A stretch of 64,000 nt of DNA from contig JAFTCA010000004.1 in assembly GCA_017454945.1 (NCBI GenBank), forward strand, positions 1-64,000, read 5' to 3'. The position numbers were made by a program, and so were the translations under genes. This document shows positions 1,259 through 18,249 of the stretch, piece by piece (the first letter of the stretch is position 1; each line of letters starts with the position of its first letter). This stretch comes from Bacteroidales bacterium. Lineage in GTDB: Bacteria; Bacteroidota; Bacteroidia; Bacteroidales; WCHB1-69. The notes under the pieces are model-generated. The model was not told the origin of the DNA and made no database searches. It saw only the letters and a list, made by a program, of their open reading frames with translations.

Positions 1259-1741
1259 ATGAAACACTTTGGTTTGATATTGTGCTGTTTGTCGCTGCTG
1301 ATGCTAACACAAGCGCAGTCGCTCGACCAGATGACCGTTGCCACGGGCAGCGTCTCCGATGCGCGCATGAGCGTGACCATCGGCGAGCCCTGCATTTTTG
1401 TGGCCACCCACGAGAATGGCACCCTTTCTGGCGGTGCGCAAGGTGGTGCAACAACCTCCCCTACAGGTGTAAAACCGTTTGCCTTATCCTCTCATTTGCA
1501 GGTTTTTCCTAATCCTGTTGTTGATAAATTGTTTGTGCAAACAGATGATACTGAGTCTGTTGAAGTCTTTTTTGAAGTGTACGACAATGCTGGGAAGTTG
1601 GTACTTGAGTGCCGACAAGCATCTGCCAAAGGATTGTTTCAGATAGATGTATCGTCGTTGCCGTCAGGAAGTTATATTCTTTGTGTCATGCCATCACAGA
1701 GGCTGGCTATGGGTCATGTTGCCTTCGTAAAAGCCAGATAA
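1259..1741 (+). CDS. small secreted protein with type IX secretion C-terminal sorting domain
   Basis: The protein has 160 residues from the ATG at 1259. An in-frame TTG 15 bases upstream lies almost on the promoter and is less likely. Residues 1-19 form a Sec signal peptide (MKHFGLILCCLSLLMLTQAQ). Residues about 20-75 are a short extracellular part of the 'TIGEP...NGTLSGG' kind. Residues about 82-160 are a type A sorting domain: FPNPVVDKLFV, then YDNAGKLVL, then the VSSLPSGSYIL strand and a basic C-terminus. The sorting domain directs export through the T9SS and attachment to the surface. The cargo is so small that the protein is nearly all signal and sorting domain. It implies a working T9SS elsewhere in the genome. 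Confidence 0.85.
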   Translation: MKHFGLILCCLSLLMLTQAQSLDQMTVATGSVSDARMSVTIGEPCIFVATHENGTLSGGAQGGATTSPTGVKPFALSSHLQVFPNPVVDKLFVQTDDTESVEVFFEVYDNAGKLVLECRQASAKGLFQIDVSSLPSGSYILCVMPSQRLAMGHVAFVKAR

Positions 1742-1827
1742 GCAGGTTGGCATACTGAGTGAAAAAATTTTTTTTATCCGCTTAAAGATAATCCATTAAT
1801 TGTTTAATTTTGAGGAAACTCATTACG

Positions 1828-3945
1828 ATGGATTATCGCAAATATCCTATTTTCAGGGTGTTAATATCTCTTATTTTGGGCATTGTGCTGGCCTATTCCG
1901 GTACTTTGTCCTTCGTATCTCCCATTATGGCATTGCTGACTGCTGCATGTTTTTGTCTCTTTTCGGGTGTCATATACCACAAAACGACCTATCAATGGCA
2001 ATGGACGGCGGGTGTGGGAGTGCTGCTGGCTGCGCTGTTTGTCGGCTTTGGATTGACAAAATTCCGATTGATACCCTCTTTTTCTTCTTCCTTGGAGCAT
2101 TATGTCAAGCAAAACCGCCAGTATGTGGTTACCATTTTAGAACCGCCCGAAGTGCGAGCCAAAAGTGTGAAGATGAGGGTGTTACTCGAAAAGTCGTTGG
2201 AGGATACGACCATTTTACAGCCGTGTATGCTCTATGTGGCCCGCGACTCGGCAGCCGCACAGTTACGATATGGAGATAGAATATTGATTAACAGTCAGAT
2301 AAAAGATATCGAGCCGCCTAAAAATCCCGATGCCTTTGACTACAGGGCATTTATGCGCCGCAAGGGGGTGTATTTCACTGGCTATGTGCCTGCATGTCAG
2401 TGGCAGAAAATAGACAGTGGCCACGTGCATTGGCTGAGGGCGAAGTCGTACCAGCTGCAGCAGTACTTCTCGCGACAGTTTGCGCTGGCTGGTGTGGCTG
2501 GCGATGAATATGCAGTCATTACGGCCATTCTGCTTGGCAACGACGAGACTATGGAGCCCGATCTTCGTGCACGCTATGCGTCGGCGGGCGTGAGCCACAT
2601 CTTGTGTGTGTCAGGAATGCATGTCGGTATTATCTATATGATTCTCAATTTCTTACTAAAACCGTTGGATTTGTATCGTCGTTCCCGCTATGCGAAAGCC
2701 CTCTTGTTGGTGGGCTTTATTTGGCTTTATGCGCACATTACGGGCCTTTCGCCTTCGGTGACGCGCGCGGCTACTATGTTCACCTTCGTCGCATTGGGAG
2801 GACTTCTTCGTCGTCCTGCCGACATATTCCACAGTTTGTATGCGTCGCTTTTTATCCTATTGATAATAAATCCGTCACTTTTGTTTGAAACGGGCTTCCA
2901 ATTGAGTTATCTAGCGGTGTTCGGCATTGTCATCTTCCAGCCAAAGATAGCGTCATGGCTAAAACCGCGAACTCGCACGGGCAAGTATTTCAACGAGTTG
3001 GCATCAGTATCGCTGGCGGCGCAGTTGACCACCTTCCCTGTGTCGGTGCACTGTTTCGGACAGTTTCCCAACTATTTTCTGTTGGCCAACCTGTCGGTCA
3101 TTGCCTTGTCGTTTGCGGTGGTGGTGACGGGCGTGGCCTTGTTGGCAGTATCTTTCTGGCCGAAATTGGCAACCTTGGTGGGCTATATTCTCGGATTTGA
3201 GATAAAGAGTATGAACAGCATGATAGGCTGGATCAACGAACTGCCGGGTGCCGTCAGTGACAATCTAAAGCTGGATTTGTCGCAAGTGCTGCTGATTTAT
3301 CTGGTCATCTTGATGCTGGTATTCTTTTTCAAAACGGCGCGCAAACCTGCGTTATGGGTGGGCTTGGCGGCGTTTGCGCTTTTGCCACTAACCATTTTGT
3401 ACGATAAATATCAGCAGTCAAATAAAAAAGAATTGATTGTGTATCAAATAAATAAAAATACAGCTATAGGTTTTCAGGATGGTAGCGATGGCATATTGCT
3501 GGCCGACAGTGCCCTGTGGCCTGGCAGCAGTGATTACAACTTTAATATCAAGAATCATGAGCGTCAGTCACGTTTGAGCAGTCGCCCTGTGGCATTGCAA
3601 GAGACGCTGTTTAAGGATGGAAATTTTGCTAAAGTGGGACAATTTGTTTATTTTCAAAATGTTACGCTCTATTTGTTAGAACGAGGTCAGTGGCTCTATC
3701 CGACAGCTAATCCGCCGCAGGTTGATTATTTGGTTTTGTGTCATAGTCCGCAGGCACCGCCCGAAAAAGTGGCGGCGGCTCTCAATTTTAAGCATGTCGT
3801 TCTTGATGGCAGCAATACGCCCTATTATCGGGACAGGTGGCAGGATTACTGTCGTCAAAATGACATAAGTTTCTATTATACAGTTGATTCAGGATTTTTT
3901 CAAATCCATATCAGAGAAAGGAAAAAAATGATTGAAAAAAAGTGA
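1828..3945 (+). CDS. comEC: ComEC/Rec2-family DNA uptake channel protein
   Basis: The protein is about 705 residues and sits in the inner membrane, where ComEC passes single-stranded DNA into the cell. N-terminal membrane segments are followed by a DUF4131-type soluble domain (about 60-200). The competence core follows, with the hallmark GVSHILCVSGMHVGI and then about eight membrane helices. The C-terminal 150 residues resemble the metallo-beta-lactamase-like domain, but I do not see an HxHxDH metal motif, so that domain looks degenerate, as I recall for other Bacteroidota ComEC proteins. The start is taken at the ATG of MDYRKYPIF; a TTG 18 bases upstream is possible. Transport of DNA is inferred from family membership. 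Confidence 0.9.
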   Translation: MDYRKYPIFRVLISLILGIVLAYSGTLSFVSPIMALLTAACFCLFSGVIYHKTTYQWQWTAGVGVLLAALFVGFGLTKFRLIPSFSSSLEHYVKQNRQYVVTILEPPEVRAKSVKMRVLLEKSLEDTTILQPCMLYVARDSAAAQLRYGDRILINSQIKDIEPPKNPDAFDYRAFMRRKGVYFTGYVPACQWQKIDSGHVHWLRAKSYQLQQYFSRQFALAGVAGDEYAVITAILLGNDETMEPDLRARYASAGVSHILCVSGMHVGIIYMILNFLLKPLDLYRRSRYAKALLLVGFIWLYAHITGLSPSVTRAATMFTFVALGGLLRRPADIFHSLYASLFILLIINPSLLFETGFQLSYLAVFGIVIFQPKIASWLKPRTRTGKYFNELASVSLAAQLTTFPVSVHCFGQFPNYFLLANLSVIALSFAVVVTGVALLAVSFWPKLATLVGYILGFEIKSMNSMIGWINELPGAVSDNLKLDLSQVLLIYLVILMLVFFFKTARKPALWVGLAAFALLPLTILYDKYQQSNKKELIVYQINKNTAIGFQDGSDGILLADSALWPGSSDYNFNIKNHERQSRLSSRPVALQETLFKDGNFAKVGQFVYFQNVTLYLLERGQWLYPTANPPQVDYLVLCHSPQAPPEKVAAALNFKHVVLDGSNTPYYRDRWQDYCRQNDISFYYTVDSGFFQIHIRERKKMIEKK

Positions 3946-8224: not shown

Positions 8225-9559
8225 TTAGTTCTCCTCTTTCAGCTTGTTTTCCGGTTCGTGTTTGTATTTGAAAACCAGTGCAAACAGCACGGCTACGACA
8301 AATGCGTAGGCGGCGAAGATAAACCATGAGGTTTGCCAGCCGTGCCATACATTCATCGCCAACGCTTCGCGTGCGCTGTCGCTCAGGGTTGCCATACTGC
8401 CTTCGGCCACATTGCGGAAATTGGAGAAGACAAACTTGTTGACTATCAACTGTGCGCTCAGTGTGCCAATGGTGGCACCGATGCCGTTGGTCATCAGGAA
8501 GAACAAGCCTTGTGCTGAGGAGCGGATGTTGGGAGTTGTCTCTTTGTCAACAAACAGAGAACCGCTGATATTGAAGAAGTCGAATGCTACGCCGTACACG
8601 ATGCAGGAGAGCACGAACAGCCATACGCCGGAACCGGGGTTGCCTAAGCCGAAAAAGCCGAAACGGAGCACCCACGCAAACATGGCAATGAGCATCACTT
8701 TCTTGATACCAAAACGTTTGAGGAAGAATGGTATCAACAGAATACACAGTGTTTCAGATATTTGTGAAATGGATATCAGAATGTTGGCGTGTTGTACACC
8801 AAAAGTGTTTGCATATTCGGGAATGTGCTTGAAACTCGACAGGAAGGGATTGGCAAAGCCATTGGTGATTTGCAGGGAAACGCCCAGCAGCATCGAGAAG
8901 ATGAAAAATACAGCCATTTTGGGACTTTTAAACAGTGCAAATGCTTTTAAGCCAAGGGCTTCCACTAACGATTTGCTTTCAACGGCCTGGCTGGTGGGGC
9001 AATGTGGCAGTGTGAATGAGTAGGCTGCCAATACTAAGCCTATGCCGCCACTGGTGACAAACTGTGCTGCTGAAGATTGGAAGCCCAACAGGTCAACAAT
9101 CCACATGGTGGCGATGAAGCCGATGGTGCCGAAGACACGAATAGGCGGGAAGTCTTTTATTGTATCCAATCCGGCTTTGTCTAACGCGTTGTAAGCAACC
9201 GAGTTAGAAAGCGCAAGTGTGGGCATGTAGAAGGCCACACCGATAGTATATAGTGTGAATAGCGGTCCGAACTGAACGGCATCGCCAGCAGAAAGACCAT
9301 AGATGCCGGCGGCAATCATGGCGGCACCAGCCATAGCGTGGCAAAGTCCGAGCGTTTTTTGTGCCGGAATCCATTTGTCGGCCACAATGCCCATCAGGGC
9401 GGGCATGAAAATGGAAACAATGCCCTGGATAGAGTAGAAAATGCCGATATTTTTGCCCAAGCCGTGCTGGAACAGGTAGGTTCCCATGCAGGTCAGGTAG
9501 GCCCCCCAGATGGCGAACTGGAGGAAGTTCATGATGATAAGGCGGAGCTTTATGTTCAT
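8225..9559 (-). CDS. MFS transporter, nucleoside:H+ symporter type (NupG/XapB-like)
   Basis: A 444-residue inner-membrane protein with about 12 hydrophobic segments. The N-terminus (MNIKLRLIIMNFLQFAIWGAYL) and the segment PPIRVFGTIGFI resemble the NupG nucleoside-transporter branch of the major facilitator superfamily. It lies 47 bases downstream of pyrF on the same strand, which fits a pyrimidine or nucleoside role. The exact substrate cannot be read from the sequence; other MFS sugar transporters share this fold. The AT-rich gap before it (about 9560-9593) holds caatttataattta-type short repeats. Confidence 0.8.
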   Translation of the reverse strand: MNIKLRLIIMNFLQFAIWGAYLTCMGTYLFQHGLGKNIGIFYSIQGIVSIFMPALMGIVADKWIPAQKTLGLCHAMAGAAMIAAGIYGLSAGDAVQFGPLFTLYTIGVAFYMPTLALSNSVAYNALDKAGLDTIKDFPPIRVFGTIGFIATMWIVDLLGFQSSAAQFVTSGGIGLVLAAYSFTLPHCPTSQAVESKSLVEALGLKAFALFKSPKMAVFFIFSMLLGVSLQITNGFANPFLSSFKHIPEYANTFGVQHANILISISQISETLCILLIPFFLKRFGIKKVMLIAMFAWVLRFGFFGLGNPGSGVWLFVLSCIVYGVAFDFFNISGSLFVDKETTPNIRSSAQGLFFLMTNGIGATIGTLSAQLIVNKFVFSNFRNVAEGSMATLSDSAREALAMNVWHGWQTSWFIFAAYAFVVAVLFALVFKYKHEPENKLKEEN

Positions 9560-10556: not shown

Positions 10557-11612
10557 CTAATCCGTCGCGATTTCATTATCGTTTTCAAACTCTGTGATCC
10601 ATTCTTTTACCTTTTCTTTTAAAAGGGATTTTTCAGGCAGGCATAAGGCATACTGCTGTGCATAAATATTAGCGTTTTTAGGAAGTGTAAGTTTCACCAA
10701 TGCTTCGTTTTTTTGTTTGCATAGAAGAATGCCGATTGTAGGCTTCTCGAAATCCTGCTTTACATAACGGTCAAAATAGTTGACATACATTTGCATCTGT
10801 CCCAAATCTTGATGTGCGAGTTTGTCGTTCTTTAAATCAACAAGCACATAACATTGGAGAATGCGATTGTATAAGACTAGATCCACATAGAAATTTTCTT
10901 CATCAAAGGTAAATCGTTTTTGTCTTGCCTCAAAAAGAAAACCCTTCCCCATTTCAAGAAGAAATGTTTGCAGTTTGCTGATAATGGCATTTTCAAGGCT
11001 GGTTTCACTATATGAACTATCTGATTTTAGCCCTAAAAACTCTAACGATATCGGATTCTTAATTATATCAGAAGGTTTTTCGACGATTTGCCCATGTGCT
11101 GCAAGACGCATAATCTCATTTTTGTCACGTCCAAGGGCTATCCGTTCATATAGACTGCTTGCGTATTGACGTTGAAGCCATTTATACCCCCAGTTTTGTT
11201 TTTCTGCTTCTAATTCATAAAATTGCCTTTCATCAGGATTATCGATACGCATTAGGATTTGATAGTGATTCCATGAAAGAGTAAATGCTGGCATAAAATT
11301 TGTCTGCCCCGCAGACAAATTTGCGTAAACATGATAAAACTTTCGGCATTTTGATAAAGTTTCATACGACCAGCCCTTTCCAAATTTGTTCGTCAATTGC
11401 TCTGACAATCGTTGCAGTATCCCTTTACCGTATGCTGCGCGAGCGTTACCTCCTTGTTCATATTCCACTATGTATTGTCCTATACCATAGTATGTGTAAA
11501 CCATGGCGGTGTTGACAGCTTTGGCCACATGCTTCCGACTTTCTTCTATAAGCTCAGTCACTTTATTGAAAAGTTCATTTTCATTATTGACTTCTGTAAT
11601 GACTAACCCCAT
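10557..11612 (-). CDS. DUF1016/YhcG-family protein with PDDEXK nuclease domain
   Basis: A 351-residue protein. The N-terminal part (about 10-150) is the helical DUF1016 domain, with YYGIGQYIVEYEQGGNARAAYGKG and LSWNHYQILMRI. The C-terminal part (about 195-340) is a PDDEXK-like nuclease fold: the FYVDLVLYN strand supplies the Asp and the next strand gives VLVDLKNDK, the D-x-K signature. The family often accompanies restriction-modification or mobile elements, but no methyltransferase or specificity gene is present here. Nuclease activity is inferred from motifs; the biological role is unknown. The gene is more AT-rich than its neighbours. Confidence 0.88.
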   Translation of the reverse strand: MGLVITEVNNENELFNKVTELIEESRKHVAKAVNTAMVYTYYGIGQYIVEYEQGGNARAAYGKGILQRLSEQLTNKFGKGWSYETLSKCRKFYHVYANLSAGQTNFMPAFTLSWNHYQILMRIDNPDERQFYELEAEKQNWGYKWLQRQYASSLYERIALGRDKNEIMRLAAHGQIVEKPSDIIKNPISLEFLGLKSDSSYSETSLENAIISKLQTFLLEMGKGFLFEARQKRFTFDEENFYVDLVLYNRILQCYVLVDLKNDKLAHQDLGQMQMYVNYFDRYVKQDFEKPTIGILLCKQKNEALVKLTLPKNANIYAQQYALCLPEKSLLKEKVKEWITEFENDNEIATD

Positions 11613-11805: not shown

Positions 11806-13878
11806 ATGATTAGTCAGAAACTATTAAATCCTAAGAGTATTGTGATTGTGGGAGCATCGAACGATGTGCATAAGCCTGGTGGAAAACTTGTAAAGAACTT
11901 GTTGTCAAGTCCTTTTAAAGGCGATATTTATGCTGTGAACCCGAAAGAGACAGAGGTGCAAGGCATTCGCTGCTATGCCAAAGTGGAGGATTTGCCGGAA
12001 GTGGATTGCGCCATCCTGGCCATTGCCGCCAAGTACTGCCCCGCCACGGTGGATGTGCTGGCAAAAGAGAAGAACACACGCGGCTTTATCATCGTATCTG
12101 CAGGTTTTGGTGAAGAGAGCAAGCAGGGTGCAGAGTTTGAGAAGCACATTACCGATACTATCAACAGTGTGGGCGGCTCTCTCATCGGACCCAACTGCAC
12201 CGGCTTCCTCAATACCAATTACTGCGGTGCGTTCGACACCCCCATTCCGACCCTTGATCCGCACGGTGTGGATTTCGTGACTGGCTCGGGTGCTACCGCC
12301 GTTTTTATTAAGGAATATGGTATTTCCAATGGCCTTACTTTCAATAGTGTATGGGCAGTTGGTAACTCCGCCCAAATGGGTATCGAGGACGTTCTGGAAC
12401 ACCTCGACACCACCTTCGACCCCGAAAAGTCGTCGCGCGTCATTATGCTTTATATGGAGAAAATCGGTGACCCGCAGAAGCTGTTGAAACACTCGCGCTC
12501 GCTCATTAACAAGGGATGCAAGATTGCGGCCATCAAGTCGGGTGGCTCCGCTGCCGGCAGTCGCGCCGCCTCGTCGCATACCGGTGCTTTGGCCACCAAT
12601 GACGCCGCCGTTGATGCTCTCTTCCGCAAGGCAGGTATCGTGCGTTGCCACAACCGTCAGGAACTCACCACCGTCTGCGCCATCTTTATGCACCCTGAGG
12701 TGAAAGGCAAAAATATGGCCGTCATCACCCACGCCGGCGGTCCTGCCGTGATGTTGACGGATGTGCTGTCCGACAATGGTATGGACGTGCCCCATATCGA
12801 AGGTCCCAAGGCCGACGAGCTGCTCTCCAAACTCTTTGGCGGTTCCTCCGTGGGCAACCCCATCGACTTTCTTGCCACTGGTACTGCCGAGCAGCTGGGC
12901 ACCATCATCGACTACTGCGAAAATGAGTTCGACAATATCGACTGTATGTGCGTCATCTTCGGCTCACCAGGACTTTTCGCTAACTGGGAGGTGTATGAAG
13001 TCCTTGACCAGAAGATGAAGACTTGCAAGAAACCTATTTTCCCCATATTGCCATCTATCATCAACGTGAAGGATGAGATCGCTGATTTCATTCAGAATAA
13101 GCATCGTATCAACTTCCCCGAGGAGTGCGTGTTTGGTCAGGCATTATGCAAAGTTTATAACACCCCGAAACCGCAGCCCGAAGTGGTTGAGCAGCCCGCA
13201 ATCGATGTGGCCCGCATCCGACGCACCATCGACAAATGTGGCAACGGCTATATGGAAATCGCTGATTATAACGAACTTTTGGACGCCGCTGGCATCAGCC
13301 GCAAGAAATCAATAGAGGTGTCCAAGAAAGAAGATGCACTTGCCTTTGCCAAGGAGGTTGGTTGCAGTAAGGATGTGCCGTTGGTAATGAAGGTGGTAGG
13401 ACCGTTGCACAAGAGCGATGTGGGCGGTGTTACCCTGAATGTCAAGGATTTGGACACCGTAAGCAAGGAATTCGACCGATTGATGGCCATTAAGGACACC
13501 TACGCAGTGGAGATGTATCCGATGCTGGACGGTACCGACGTCTATATCGGCGCCATCCGCGATGACAAGTTCGGACATCAGGTGTTCTTCGGCTTGGGCG
13601 GCATCTTTATTGAGGTGCTGAAGGATGTGCAGAGCGCGCTGGCACCTATCACGGCTGCTGAGGCCAAGGAGATGCTGACGAAGCTGCGTGGCTACAAGAT
13701 CTTGCAGGGCGTGCGCGGACAGGAACCCGTCAATATTGACCTGTATGCCGACCAGATTGCCCGTGTGAGCGCGTTGGTACAGGCCGCTCCCGAAATTGCG
13801 GAGATGGACCTCAACCCGCTGCTCGGCAATCCTCGCTACGTTACAGCCGTAGATGCCCGTATTAGAATTGAAAAATAA
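11806..13878 (+). CDS. ADP-forming acetate/acyl-CoA ligase, fused alpha-beta
   Basis: A 690-residue cytoplasmic enzyme that converts acyl-CoA, ADP and phosphate to the acid, CoA and ATP (or the reverse). Domain order: CoA-binding Rossmann domain (5-135, VIVGASNDVHKPGGKL), ligase-type CoA domain with the phosphohistidine motif SSHTGALA (His258), then the ATP-grasp beta part (about 480-690, with KVVGPLHKSDVGGV and GLGGIFIEVLKD). The alpha and beta parts that are separate in some archaea are fused here. With the downstream aminopeptidase it suggests energy gain from amino-acid fermentation, an inference from context. Confidence 0.93.
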   Translation: MISQKLLNPKSIVIVGASNDVHKPGGKLVKNLLSSPFKGDIYAVNPKETEVQGIRCYAKVEDLPEVDCAILAIAAKYCPATVDVLAKEKNTRGFIIVSAGFGEESKQGAEFEKHITDTINSVGGSLIGPNCTGFLNTNYCGAFDTPIPTLDPHGVDFVTGSGATAVFIKEYGISNGLTFNSVWAVGNSAQMGIEDVLEHLDTTFDPEKSSRVIMLYMEKIGDPQKLLKHSRSLINKGCKIAAIKSGGSAAGSRAASSHTGALATNDAAVDALFRKAGIVRCHNRQELTTVCAIFMHPEVKGKNMAVITHAGGPAVMLTDVLSDNGMDVPHIEGPKADELLSKLFGGSSVGNPIDFLATGTAEQLGTIIDYCENEFDNIDCMCVIFGSPGLFANWEVYEVLDQKMKTCKKPIFPILPSIINVKDEIADFIQNKHRINFPEECVFGQALCKVYNTPKPQPEVVEQPAIDVARIRRTIDKCGNGYMEIADYNELLDAAGISRKKSIEVSKKEDALAFAKEVGCSKDVPLVMKVVGPLHKSDVGGVTLNVKDLDTVSKEFDRLMAIKDTYAVEMYPMLDGTDVYIGAIRDDKFGHQVFFGLGGIFIEVLKDVQSALAPITAAEAKEMLTKLRGYKILQGVRGQEPVNIDLYADQIARVSALVQAAPEIAEMDLNPLLGNPRYVTAVDARIRIEK

Positions 13879-15304: not shown

Positions 15305-16135
15305 ATGGCATCATTTGAATTCACCTCTTATCCTTATAGCGAGCAAGACCTCCAACGGCGAATAGCCCAATACACATCGCAGCCGTTGCGCTTTTTCACC
15401 AAAGAAAGTGAGGCTTGTCGGTTTTTGCTCGGCTGCATCGACCTGACCACATTGGAAGGCTCTGACACGCCTGCCAAGGTGGAAGAGTTGTGCGGCAAGG
15501 CCGCAGCGTTCCCTACGGCGGCAGTTTGCGTCTATCCGCCGTTTGTGGCGTTGGCGAAGAAATGCCTGGCAGGTACACCAATCCATGTCGCTTCTGTGGC
15601 TGGGGCATTTCCTGCAGGCCAGTCGCCCATCGAGATCAAAGTGGCAGAGGTGCGCTACGCTGTGGAGCAGGGTGCCGATGAAATTGACATGGTCATTTCG
15701 CGTGGCAAGTTCTTGGATGGCCGCTATAATGAGGTGTTTGACGAGATTGTGGCCATCAGGCAGGCGGCAGCCCCGGCTCACCTCAAGGTGATTCTGGAGA
15801 CGGGAGAACTCAAAACGCCCGAAAACATCTACCACGCTTCGCAGTTGGCCATAGCTGCCGGTGCTGATTTCATCAAGACTTCGACGGGAAAAATTGCAGT
15901 CAATGCGACACCCGAGTCGTTCTTGGTGATGTTGGATGCCATCAAAGAGCATTATGACAAGACAGGTCAAATGGTGGGCATGAAGCCTGCCGGTGGCATT
16001 GCTGATGCCGATACGGCTCTCTCCTTCCTTAAGATTTTGGAGAATGTGCTGGGCGAGCCGTGGCTCACTAACCGCTATTTCCGCATTGGCGCCAGTCGCT
16101 TGGCCAACAAGATGGCGGAACGCATCGCTGAGTAA
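15305..16135 (+). CDS. deoC: deoxyribose-phosphate aldolase
   Basis: A 276-residue cytoplasmic enzyme that cleaves 2-deoxyribose 5-phosphate to acetaldehyde and glyceraldehyde 3-phosphate. The Schiff-base lysine is Lys191 in DFIKTSTGK, and the second lysine lies in GMKPAGGI. The DeoC/LacD fold signature EIDMVISRGKFLDG is also present. It starts 7 bases after pepP, so the three genes from 11806 likely form one catabolic operon. Confidence 0.96.
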   Translation: MASFEFTSYPYSEQDLQRRIAQYTSQPLRFFTKESEACRFLLGCIDLTTLEGSDTPAKVEELCGKAAAFPTAAVCVYPPFVALAKKCLAGTPIHVASVAGAFPAGQSPIEIKVAEVRYAVEQGADEIDMVISRGKFLDGRYNEVFDEIVAIRQAAAPAHLKVILETGELKTPENIYHASQLAIAAGADFIKTSTGKIAVNATPESFLVMLDAIKEHYDKTGQMVGMKPAGGIADADTALSFLKILENVLGEPWLTNRYFRIGASRLANKMAERIAE

Positions 16136-16198: not shown

Positions 16199-17611
16199 TT
16201 AACAGGAAGAGTGTTCCTTCGCCAGCTCCTTTTTGAAATAGGCAAATGGCTGAAGGGTTTGAGCGTAGTAAAACAATTTCAGGTAAAACGCTATTTGCAG
16301 CCGCTCGAGTTCACATTCGTTCTCTCCCAAGGCTGTGTCGTTGCGTTTCCCTATGTTGATTTTTTGTGCCACACAATGTCCCAGGCACAGGTATTTGGCC
16401 CAGCACTTTTGACATTCCGTAATGGTCTCAATCTCCAAGGCCCTGTATAGTTTGGCTTGTGCGGTAGTGCCGCTGCCGACGCGTCCGATGGCGTGCTTCG
16501 AGTTGTTCATGAAGTGCGCACACGAGAAGATGGTGCCATCGGCCATCATCGTGAAATATGTCCGTGCAGCGCCACAGGCGATTCTTTTGTTTTGTCTGAA
16601 TCTAAGTGCATTGCCAAACTGGTAAAAGCGCTGATTGAAAATGGTTTGCCTATTCTGAATGCGCTCACGATAGTAGTGCTCCAACTGGTTAAACTGCTCC
16701 TTGATATGGACAAGCAGTTCGCTGTCGTAGTGCGAGTAAGTGTGGTCTTTGTTTTCAGAGGCGTATGCAAACGAGATAAAGAAAGGCAACTGTAACTGCT
16801 CGAAGAAAGCGAATGTATCGACAATGTAAGGATTTGTATTGACCATGGTGGCGCGCAGCTCGGTGCGGATGCCGTTGTGTTTCATGGCTTCCACGAATTT
16901 CATGACACGATGGAACGAGGAACGGCCGTGCTCATCCTTGCGGAGGTTGAACTCGTTGTCGGGTCCATCCAAGCTGATCAAAACCGAAAATTTGTTTTCC
17001 TTGAACAATCGGATGATGTCATCATTTAATAGGGTACCATTGGTGGTGACAGAGTAGAAAATCTTTTCGTCGGGATATTTCTCTTTAACATATTGTATGG
17101 TATGACAAATGAGGTCGGAGCGCAGTAGTGGCTCCCCACCGAAAAAGATAAACCACAACGGTTGCTTGTCGCCTTGCACATGGCGGTGTTCCACGACAAA
17201 ATCAACGGTTCTCTCAATGTCCGCGGCTTCGAAATCCCTGAAGTTGAACTTACCGTCGGTTTGTGCAAAGCAGTAGGGACATCGTAGCGTGCAGTGCCCC
17301 GAGATGGGCAGCACGACCTCTTCGAAACGGGTTCCATGGGTGGAGGCAGTGTCGATATCCAGTGACGACATCTGAGGTGAGGAGGCAATTAACTCGCAGA
17401 GAGCATTGTAATATCCTTCATAATCAGCCCTGCCGAAGCAGATTTCAGTGCAAGCTTTGCCCTTATGGTGAAACATGTCCAAAAAACGGACGGTTTCAGG
17501 GTCGCCGATAGGATACAACTGCATGGTTTCTGTATGATATAACAACGTGCAATTCTCGTTCAAGGGGAACAGTTTAATATGCTCGGGCAGCAATTTCATT
17601 TGTTTAGCCAT
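16199..17611 (-). CDS. radical SAM/SPASM peptide maturase (RiPP)
   Basis: A 470-residue protein. A variable N-terminal part (1-95) probably recognises the leader peptide. The radical SAM core binds its cluster by CTLRCPYC (Cys107, 111, 114) and binds SAM through FFGGEPL. The C-terminal SPASM domain has the full seven-cysteine pattern: Cys346, then GxxxxC ending at Cys364, then Cys400-x2-Cys403-x5-Cys409-x3-Cys413, then Cys433, enough for two auxiliary [4Fe-4S] clusters. Such enzymes make thioether or C-C cross-links in ribosomal peptides. The gene directly follows the cysteine-rich precursor on the same strand. It resembles what I recall as the GG-Bacteroidales maturase family; the exact chemistry cannot be read from sequence. 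Confidence 0.92.
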   Translation of the reverse strand: MAKQMKLLPEHIKLFPLNENCTLLYHTETMQLYPIGDPETVRFLDMFHHKGKACTEICFGRADYEGYYNALCELIASSPQMSSLDIDTASTHGTRFEEVVLPISGHCTLRCPYCFAQTDGKFNFRDFEAADIERTVDFVVEHRHVQGDKQPLWFIFFGGEPLLRSDLICHTIQYVKEKYPDEKIFYSVTTNGTLLNDDIIRLFKENKFSVLISLDGPDNEFNLRKDEHGRSSFHRVMKFVEAMKHNGIRTELRATMVNTNPYIVDTFAFFEQLQLPFFISFAYASENKDHTYSHYDSELLVHIKEQFNQLEHYYRERIQNRQTIFNQRFYQFGNALRFRQNKRIACGAARTYFTMMADGTIFSCAHFMNNSKHAIGRVGSGTTAQAKLYRALEIETITECQKCWAKYLCLGHCVAQKINIGKRNDTALGENECELERLQIAFYLKLFYYAQTLQPFAYFKKELAKEHSSC

Positions 17612-17625
17612 AATGTCAAGTTGAA

Positions 17626-17659
17626 AAGGTAATCTGTCCGTTTGCGAACAGATTACCTT
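17626..17659 (-). promoter_or_regulatory. intercistronic hairpin between precursor and maturase
   Basis: A perfect 12-bp stem (17659-17648 with 17637-17626, minus strand) is followed by ttttc. It lies between the precursor stop and the maturase start. A short T-run suggests a leaky terminator or RNA-stabilising element giving more precursor than enzyme. Confidence 0.65.
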
Positions 17660-17665
17660 GGTTAA

Positions 17666-17896
17666 TTATCTGAAAGACACACTGGAACATCCAGTGATAG
17701 AAAACGATCCTTCGTTGCAGGATGAGGAGAATTTGGGCAGGCAAGCCACCTCAAAGGTCAGACAAGCTTTGATTTTCCCAATGCGATTACAGAGAATGGT
17801 ATCTCCAGATTTGTTGCAGCTGTAAGGTTTTCCTGCACCACCTTGTATTTCAGCCAACTCTTCCGAGTTGAGCAATGTCATATTCAATTGTTTCAT
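17666..17896 (-). CDS. RiPP precursor peptide, double-glycine leader, six cysteines
   Basis: A 76-residue peptide. The leader (1-20) reads MKQLNMTLLNSEELAEIQGG, the ELxxIxGG motif cut by C39 peptidase-type exporters. The core (21-76) carries Cys27, 36, 45, 52, 60 and 70, evenly spread (gaps of 8, 8, 6, 7 and 9 residues), and is rich in Ser, Gly and Lys. It lies 54 bases upstream of the radical SAM/SPASM maturase on the same strand, so it is the likely substrate. I infer intramolecular thioether or other cross-links. No C39 transporter is encoded nearby, so export must use a distant gene. Confidence 0.88.
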   Translation of the reverse strand: MKQLNMTLLNSEELAEIQGGAGKPYSCNKSGDTILCNRIGKIKACLTFEVACLPKFSSSCNEGSFSITGCSSVSFR

Positions 17897-18212
17897 AATT
17901 GCAAATTTTATATAAACACATTATTTGTTCTTCCATTGAAACATGCCGATGATCAATAGGGCAGTCTCCTGATATAAAGTGCTTTACAAGAATACACATT
18001 CTTATAAAAACGGTCTTCTCCGTTGCCTGTAGTGCTTGTGGCAAGGGTTCCCGTGCGGTGTATGGCTCCGCACGGGTCCTCGCTGTGCACCTCTTCTACG
18101 CCCCTGTCAACGGCACACTCTTGACAAGGACTCTACACTAAATCCATCCTGTTTGAGGTGTTAAAAATAAACTTGTCTGTATCTGCCTTTGATAGACAGA
18201 AATCAGGTTTGC
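17897..18212 (-). promoter_or_regulatory. long structured 5' leader of the RiPP transcript
   Basis: The promoter at 18219-18249 places the start near 18212, leaving a leader of about 315 nt before the precursor ATG. It contains a strong 9-bp hairpin (18076-18068 with 18058-18050, cccgtgcgg type) without a T-run. I find no convincing short gene in it. It could be a regulatory RNA or attenuator. A TAAAATTTG just before the ATG could be a second start but has the wrong spacing. Confidence 0.5.
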
Positions 18213-18218
18213 TGATGA

Positions 18219-18249
18219 CAAAGTTAGCGTATGGGAAAGAGGTGTGCAA
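18219..18249 (-). promoter_or_regulatory. promoter of the RiPP cassette
   Basis: The minus strand reads TTG (18249-18247), 20 nt, TAACTTTG (18226-18219), a close match to the Bacteroidota promoter form. It points toward the precursor and maturase genes. Confidence 0.75.

Follow-up and report, generated by a model that had tools for sequence, protein, structure and literature searches.

Organization of the locus

The window, a 64,000-nucleotide stretch of DNA from a Bacteroidales bacterium, carries two adjacent genes on the minus strand, which encode a short cysteine-rich peptide and a radical SAM/SPASM enzyme. The features of this cassette, of its surroundings and of two loci used for comparison are as follows:

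15305-16135, plus strand: deoC-like gene (assigned by eye), convergent with the cassette
16199-17611, minus strand: radical SAM/SPASM peptide maturase, 470 aa (PF04055, 1.4e-20; 3+7 cluster cysteines)
17626-17659, minus strand: 15-bp hairpin between precursor and maturase (MFE -22.7 kcal/mol, z -5.0)
17666-17896, minus strand: RiPP precursor ORF, 76 aa (MKQLNMTLLNSEELAEIQGG / AGKPYSCNKSGDTILCNRIGKIKACLTFEVACLPKFSSSCNEGSFSITGCSSVSFR), with a homologous core in L011
Codons 17896-17837, minus strand: precursor leader, 20 aa ending in GG, as given by the ORF sequence
17897 to about 18212-18226, minus strand: candidate structured 5' leader, about 315 nt (MFE -96.9 kcal/mol, z -3.8)
18219-18249, minus strand: candidate promoter TTG-N20-TAACTTTG (sequence match only)
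18872-18435, minus strand: dUTPase gene (assigned by eye), flanking the cassette upstream
L011:2929-3282, minus strand: precursor homologue in a related genome, its core homologous to the window core
L042:10599-12791: C39-ABC exporter in the window's genome, 730 residues, with a Peptidase_C39 match

Precursor and maturase are separated by 54 bases. The hairpin within this gap probably acts as a partial terminator or attenuator, which would keep the precursor above the enzyme. Comparable intergenic hairpins were found in two relatives (L049, z -4.3; L050, z -4.8) and a weaker one in L051. In L011 only about ten bases lie between the two ORFs, and folding of a 21-base segment at this junction gave no hairpin. 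The candidate promoter resembles the Bacteroidetes-type consensus; with a promoter at 18249-18219, the transcript would begin with a 5' leader of ∼315 bases. A G+C-rich hairpin of 9 bp lies in the region upstream of the precursor; Rfam gave no family for the cassette or its 5' leader. The G+C content of the cassette (0.40-0.50) is not clearly distinct from that of its surroundings. Elsewhere in the window, between 10500 and 12000, it falls to 0.34-0.38, possibly marking a recent insertion; this stretch contains a 351-aa ORF (10557-11612, minus strand) that by eye looks like a DUF1016/YhcG-type nuclease.

The precursor and its conservation

The 20-residue leader is followed by a core of 56 residues with six cysteines at positions 27, 36, 45, 52, 60 and 70, leaving 8, 8, 6, 7 and 9 residues between them, exactly as an earlier note on this DNA had counted. 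The leader hydrophobics I(-4), L(-7) and L(-12) agree with the rule for leaders processed by C39/PCAT proteins (PMC10885120). The SCIFF precursor model TIGR03973 did not match the peptide. Reading the core as "six cysteines in forty-five" (its cysteines span 44 residues) was rejected as a coincidence, as leader, cysteine pattern and model scores differ. The GG-Bacteroidales model TIGR04149 (cut-off 25 bits) gave no match either, which places this GG-leader peptide outside the recognised members of that family. The near-TIGR04149 match of the window's genome belongs to a different, second RiPP cassette (L053:1414-1677 and 1709-3010, both plus strand; G000 contig C5 at about 187.9 kb). It encodes a cysteine-rich GG precursor of 87 aa with a weak TIGR04149 match; its SPASM maturase comes closest to the Clo7bot, TIGR04463 and geopeptide models.

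Among 99 relative genomes searched, a single one, from another genus of the same family (L011), yielded a close maturase, with 46% identity. The ORF directly upstream of this maturase is 117 residues long, and the window core recurs in its C-terminal part: 29 of 49 residues are identical (59%, E = 3e-19), all six cysteines are kept, and both cores follow the pattern CNxSGDTIxC...GKIxAC...EVxCxPxFSSxC...FxITGCxSVxF. Over 48 codons the two genes differ at 15 first, 13 second and 35 third positions (dN 0.34, pS about 1). The protein has been held while silent sites became saturated, and the precursor core is under constraint at the protein level. Core homology and silent-site saturation together indicate that the cassette is more than a chance arrangement. 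The motif LLNxEEL is common to both leaders. The L011 leader has about 45 extra residues and lacks the GG, although the core is still so similar; a GG leader is not universal in the family.

When 393 genomes of the order were searched with a profile of the two maturases, four more close relatives emerged. In three of them GG-leader, cysteine-rich ORFs of 92, 82 and 76 aa (7, 5 and 7 cysteines) lie directly upstream of the maturase gene; in the fourth the contig begins inside this gene. A cysteine-rich precursor is therefore found at all five loci that have upstream sequence. The earlier note had tied its reading to conservation of the precursor beside homologous maturases, and L011 and the three other genomes provide it. 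A short precursor with leader and core thus adjoins a modifying enzyme and is kept across genomes, as in RiPP systems of the radical SAM/SPASM class. Cysteine spacing is another matter. The earlier note took an evenly spaced ladder as the defining feature; the spacing is approximately even in the window, but is kept no further than the closest homologue. Since the family has 5-7 cysteines with variable gaps (e.g. 10/10/6/13 or 8/6/6/9/4/6), a regular ladder is not its signature.

The maturase and its relatives

The maturase contains the full radical SAM triad (C107-x3-C111-x2-C114) and all seven SPASM cysteines (C346, C364, C400-x2-C403-x5-C409-x3-C413 and C433) that had been claimed for it. 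Among its 16 cysteines these ten, and no others, are invariant across the six family members. The best NCBIfam model was PapB (NF047865, 1.3e-52, 179 bits against a cut-off of 340); the SCIFF maturase model TIGR03974 scored 136 bits (cut-off 425) and TIGR04148 78 bits (cut-off 300). Among the models tested, led by PapB, nif11, CcpM, SCIFF and QhpD, none was matched above its cut-off. All six maturases score best with the PapB, QhpD and SCIFF maturase models. Compared with the PDB, the six-member profile matched CteB (5wgg) at 5e-60 with collinear ends. By analogy, recognition of the leader through an RRE is expected for CteB-like enzymes. The AlphaFold model, built with eight sequences, was poor (pLDDT 51 overall, under 50 in the N-terminal region concerned). 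Profile comparison of this region alone gave 2.6% probability, and a further comparison was collinear from residue 58 onwards.

In a tree of 40 sequences, none of them a PapB, QhpD or sactipeptide maturase, the six family members group in a single clade (support 100/97) whose nearest sampled group is the SCIFF maturases (97/94). Within this set the window maturase thus groups with known ranthipeptide maturases, and the clade is separate from other SPASM proteins of Bacteroidales, among them the second maturase encoded in the window's own genome. When the window maturase alone served as query against genome contigs, all matches were SCIFF-type maturases from clostridia, with 26-29% identity over the best segment. 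No further members were found in 104 genomes of the family at E ≤ 1e-40, or at E ≤ 1e-60 in 200 genomes of the family of G314, 395 of the class, and 3 and 6 of two small families. Given overlapping samples and strict thresholds, this marks the family as rare and unevenly distributed across the sampled part of the order, and it may still occur elsewhere. Viral contigs held no close relative of the maturase and no match to the precursor, and plasmids held remote SPASM proteins only. With the six-member profile, 231 remote radical SAM proteins of SPASM type were found on IMG/VR contigs (L064-L143), including one on a contig of 315 kb. The family is apparently without a name in the literature. Neither the clade nor the peptidase partner described below appears in the available parts of two surveys (PMC10352776, PMC5410138; subscription papers and supplements lay outside the search).

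A metallopeptidase partner in relatives and a distant candidate exporter

Each of the five relatives has, directly after the maturase gene, a further gene of 431-488 codons; the earlier note on the window, where this neighbour is absent, had missed it. The encoded proteins start with a signal-like stretch and carry an HExxH motif with a Glu 18 residues further on (19-20 in L059). One matches Pfam Peptidase_M1 above the cut-off (5.9e-11) and another below it (1.5e-4). Against the PDB, a profile of these peptidases matched ERAP2 chains best (1e-4), with aminopeptidase N chains at 0.46 or worse. In the window's genome a profile of the five gave no match at E ≤ 0.1; a diverged copy may still be present, the search having been run without a positive control on a genome that is about 97% complete. 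M1 and M61 metallopeptidases are known to remove lanthipeptide leaders, and MfuP cuts the core after PCAT action (PMC10885120). These roles make trimming after export plausible for the M1-like partner as well. Beside the relative cassette in L056 we noticed a second cassette (L056:13495-16623), with a 104-aa GG precursor of ∼8 cysteines, a DUF4932 protein with HEFCH and another radical SAM protein; an N-terminal LanB fragment lies upstream at 8802-9266.

Inspection by eye of the genes predicted in the window revealed no export gene, in line with the earlier note. That note pointed to a C39 transporter elsewhere in the genome, and one is indeed present: the 730-residue C39-ABC protein, on another contig, is the sole Peptidase_C39 match of this genome. 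The window's genome thus combines a GG leader, hydrophobic residues at -4, -7 and -12 and a C39-ABC transporter, as double-glycine systems do. This supports the distant protein as candidate exporter, which may be the cognate partner of the peptide. In L058 the gene next after the family peptidase encodes a truncated C39 peptidase (12289-12660, 123 aa), a broken exporter; close by, the opposite strand carries what by eye may be a transposase gene.

Proposed pathway and alternative explanations

The cassette is real and conserved, a new variation on the radical SAM/SPASM RiPP theme. Precursor conservation, a clade next to the SCIFF maturases and scores below every NCBIfam cut-off tested make a divergent ranthipeptide-type RiPP the best reading. 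The maturase very likely joins the peptide by sulfur bridges; in view of the grouping with SCIFF and the PapB-like models, the predicted cross-links are best taken to be non-alpha thioethers. PapB links Cys to Asp or Glu with 0-6 residues between them (PMC9413430). Such acceptors are available to three of the six window cysteines, C27 (D32), C45 (E49) and C60 (E62); the segments after C36, C52 and C70 contain no acidic residue. In the L011 core only the first and third cysteines have an acceptor within this range. With half of the cysteines lacking an Asp/Glu acceptor, either only some are joined or other acceptors are used. A CX3D ladder of PapB type was discarded, as C45-x3-E49 is the one fit among the six.

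We favour, with some confidence, a complete pathway for this two-gene cassette. The intergenic hairpin would cause the precursor to be produced in excess over the maturase, which would recognise the leader at LLNxEEL. Radical SAM chemistry would then join several core cysteine sulfurs to nearby non-alpha carbons, to give a thioether peptide with several rings. Cleavage after the GG and export would fall to a C39-ABC exporter encoded elsewhere; the exported core most likely acts extracellularly, for example by antagonising related bacteria. In most relatives the secreted M1-like peptidase may trim or open the product after export; in the window's genome this step may have been lost or be performed by an unrelated protease. 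More tentative is the possibility of a new cross-link pattern, in which at least half of the cysteines use acceptors other than Asp/Glu and a dedicated secreted gluzincin finishes the cross-linked peptide outside the cell.

The same genes could also encode a sactipeptide, in which the sulfurs would be attached to the alpha carbons of the acceptors. Maturases of sactipeptides likewise belong to the SPASM enzymes, the RumMC and GggB models match (2e-25 and 2e-21), and the core offers distributed cysteines and several hydrophobic acceptor candidates. We nevertheless regard this as unlikely, as the clade is sister to SCIFF ranthipeptide maturases among the sampled sequences and the PapB, QhpD and SCIFF models match far better. 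Structural maturation of the QhpD type, which would yield a small cross-linked exported protein (a scaffold or cofactor carrier) without antagonism, appears quite unlikely. The QHNDH maturase model does match all six members (best 9e-71), and a long core so well conserved between genera is unlike the fast-changing bacteriocins. However, no dehydrogenase or partner subunit was seen by eye in any cassette, and the patchy distribution and the peptidase partner resemble a peptide natural product.

Two further explanations involve no cross-linking of this peptide by the maturase. The cysteines might form disulfides only, with the maturase working on another substrate; their even number in the window and the oxidising place that an exported product would meet fit this idea. 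Relatives with 5 or 7 cysteines, and the constant position of the precursor directly upstream of the maturase, make it very unlikely. Least probable, in our judgement, is a decaying cassette that has lost peptidase and exporter and makes no product. The missing M1-like partner and the lack of an exporter nearby would be explained, but both ORFs are intact, the ten cluster cysteines are kept, the core is constrained, and promoter-like and hairpin elements are present.

Comparison with known systems

Ranthipeptide-type maturation is known mainly from Clostridia, and a survey of the Hungate1000 collection found just two ranthipeptide clusters in Bacteroidota (PMC13289728). If the ranthipeptide reading is true, a Bacteroidales clade with GG leaders, long variable cysteine-rich cores and a secreted metallopeptidase extends this type of maturation to another major group. 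It would also pose a new problem of acceptor choice for SPASM enzymes and provide an example of a peptidase that acts after export. The five precursor/maturase pairs lend themselves to comparative study.

Clusters of LanB, radical SAM/SPASM and a DUF4932 putative metalloprotease have been described (PMC5410138). As far as the available part of that paper goes, they are similar in that the SPASM enzyme adjoins a putative metalloprotease, and LanB-fragment and DUF4932 genes do occur near the L056 cassette. Neither gene was seen beside the window cassette, however, and the family peptidase matches M1 rather than DUF4932. Bacteroidales clusters of radical SAM enzyme, GG precursor and PCAT have also been surveyed (PMC10352776, available part). 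With these and with the GG-Bacteroidales family (TIGR04148/TIGR04149), the cassette shares gene order, GG leader, radical SAM/SPASM enzyme and the logic of C39 export. It differs in scoring below both GG-Bacteroidales cut-offs and in having no exporter of its own, and the M1-like partner of its relatives was not found in the available part of that survey. The PapA/PapB system of freyrasin, a ranthipeptide, provides the best-scoring model, and in both cases several thioethers are expected along a core of spaced cysteines. Unlike PapB, the window maturase stays below the cut-off (179 against 340 bits), and Cys-x3-Asp/Glu occurs at one of six cysteines. From SCIFF with its CteB/Tte1186 maturases (TIGR03973/TIGR03974, ranthipeptide), the window cassette is set apart by 24-27% maturase identity and by its precursor, as the SCIFF precursors compared are about 45 aa long, with clustered cysteines and without such a leader. 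It shares with SCIFF the six cysteines, the position of the precursor upstream of the maturase and a full-length, collinear SPASM maturase, the two groups of enzymes being sisters in the sampled tree.
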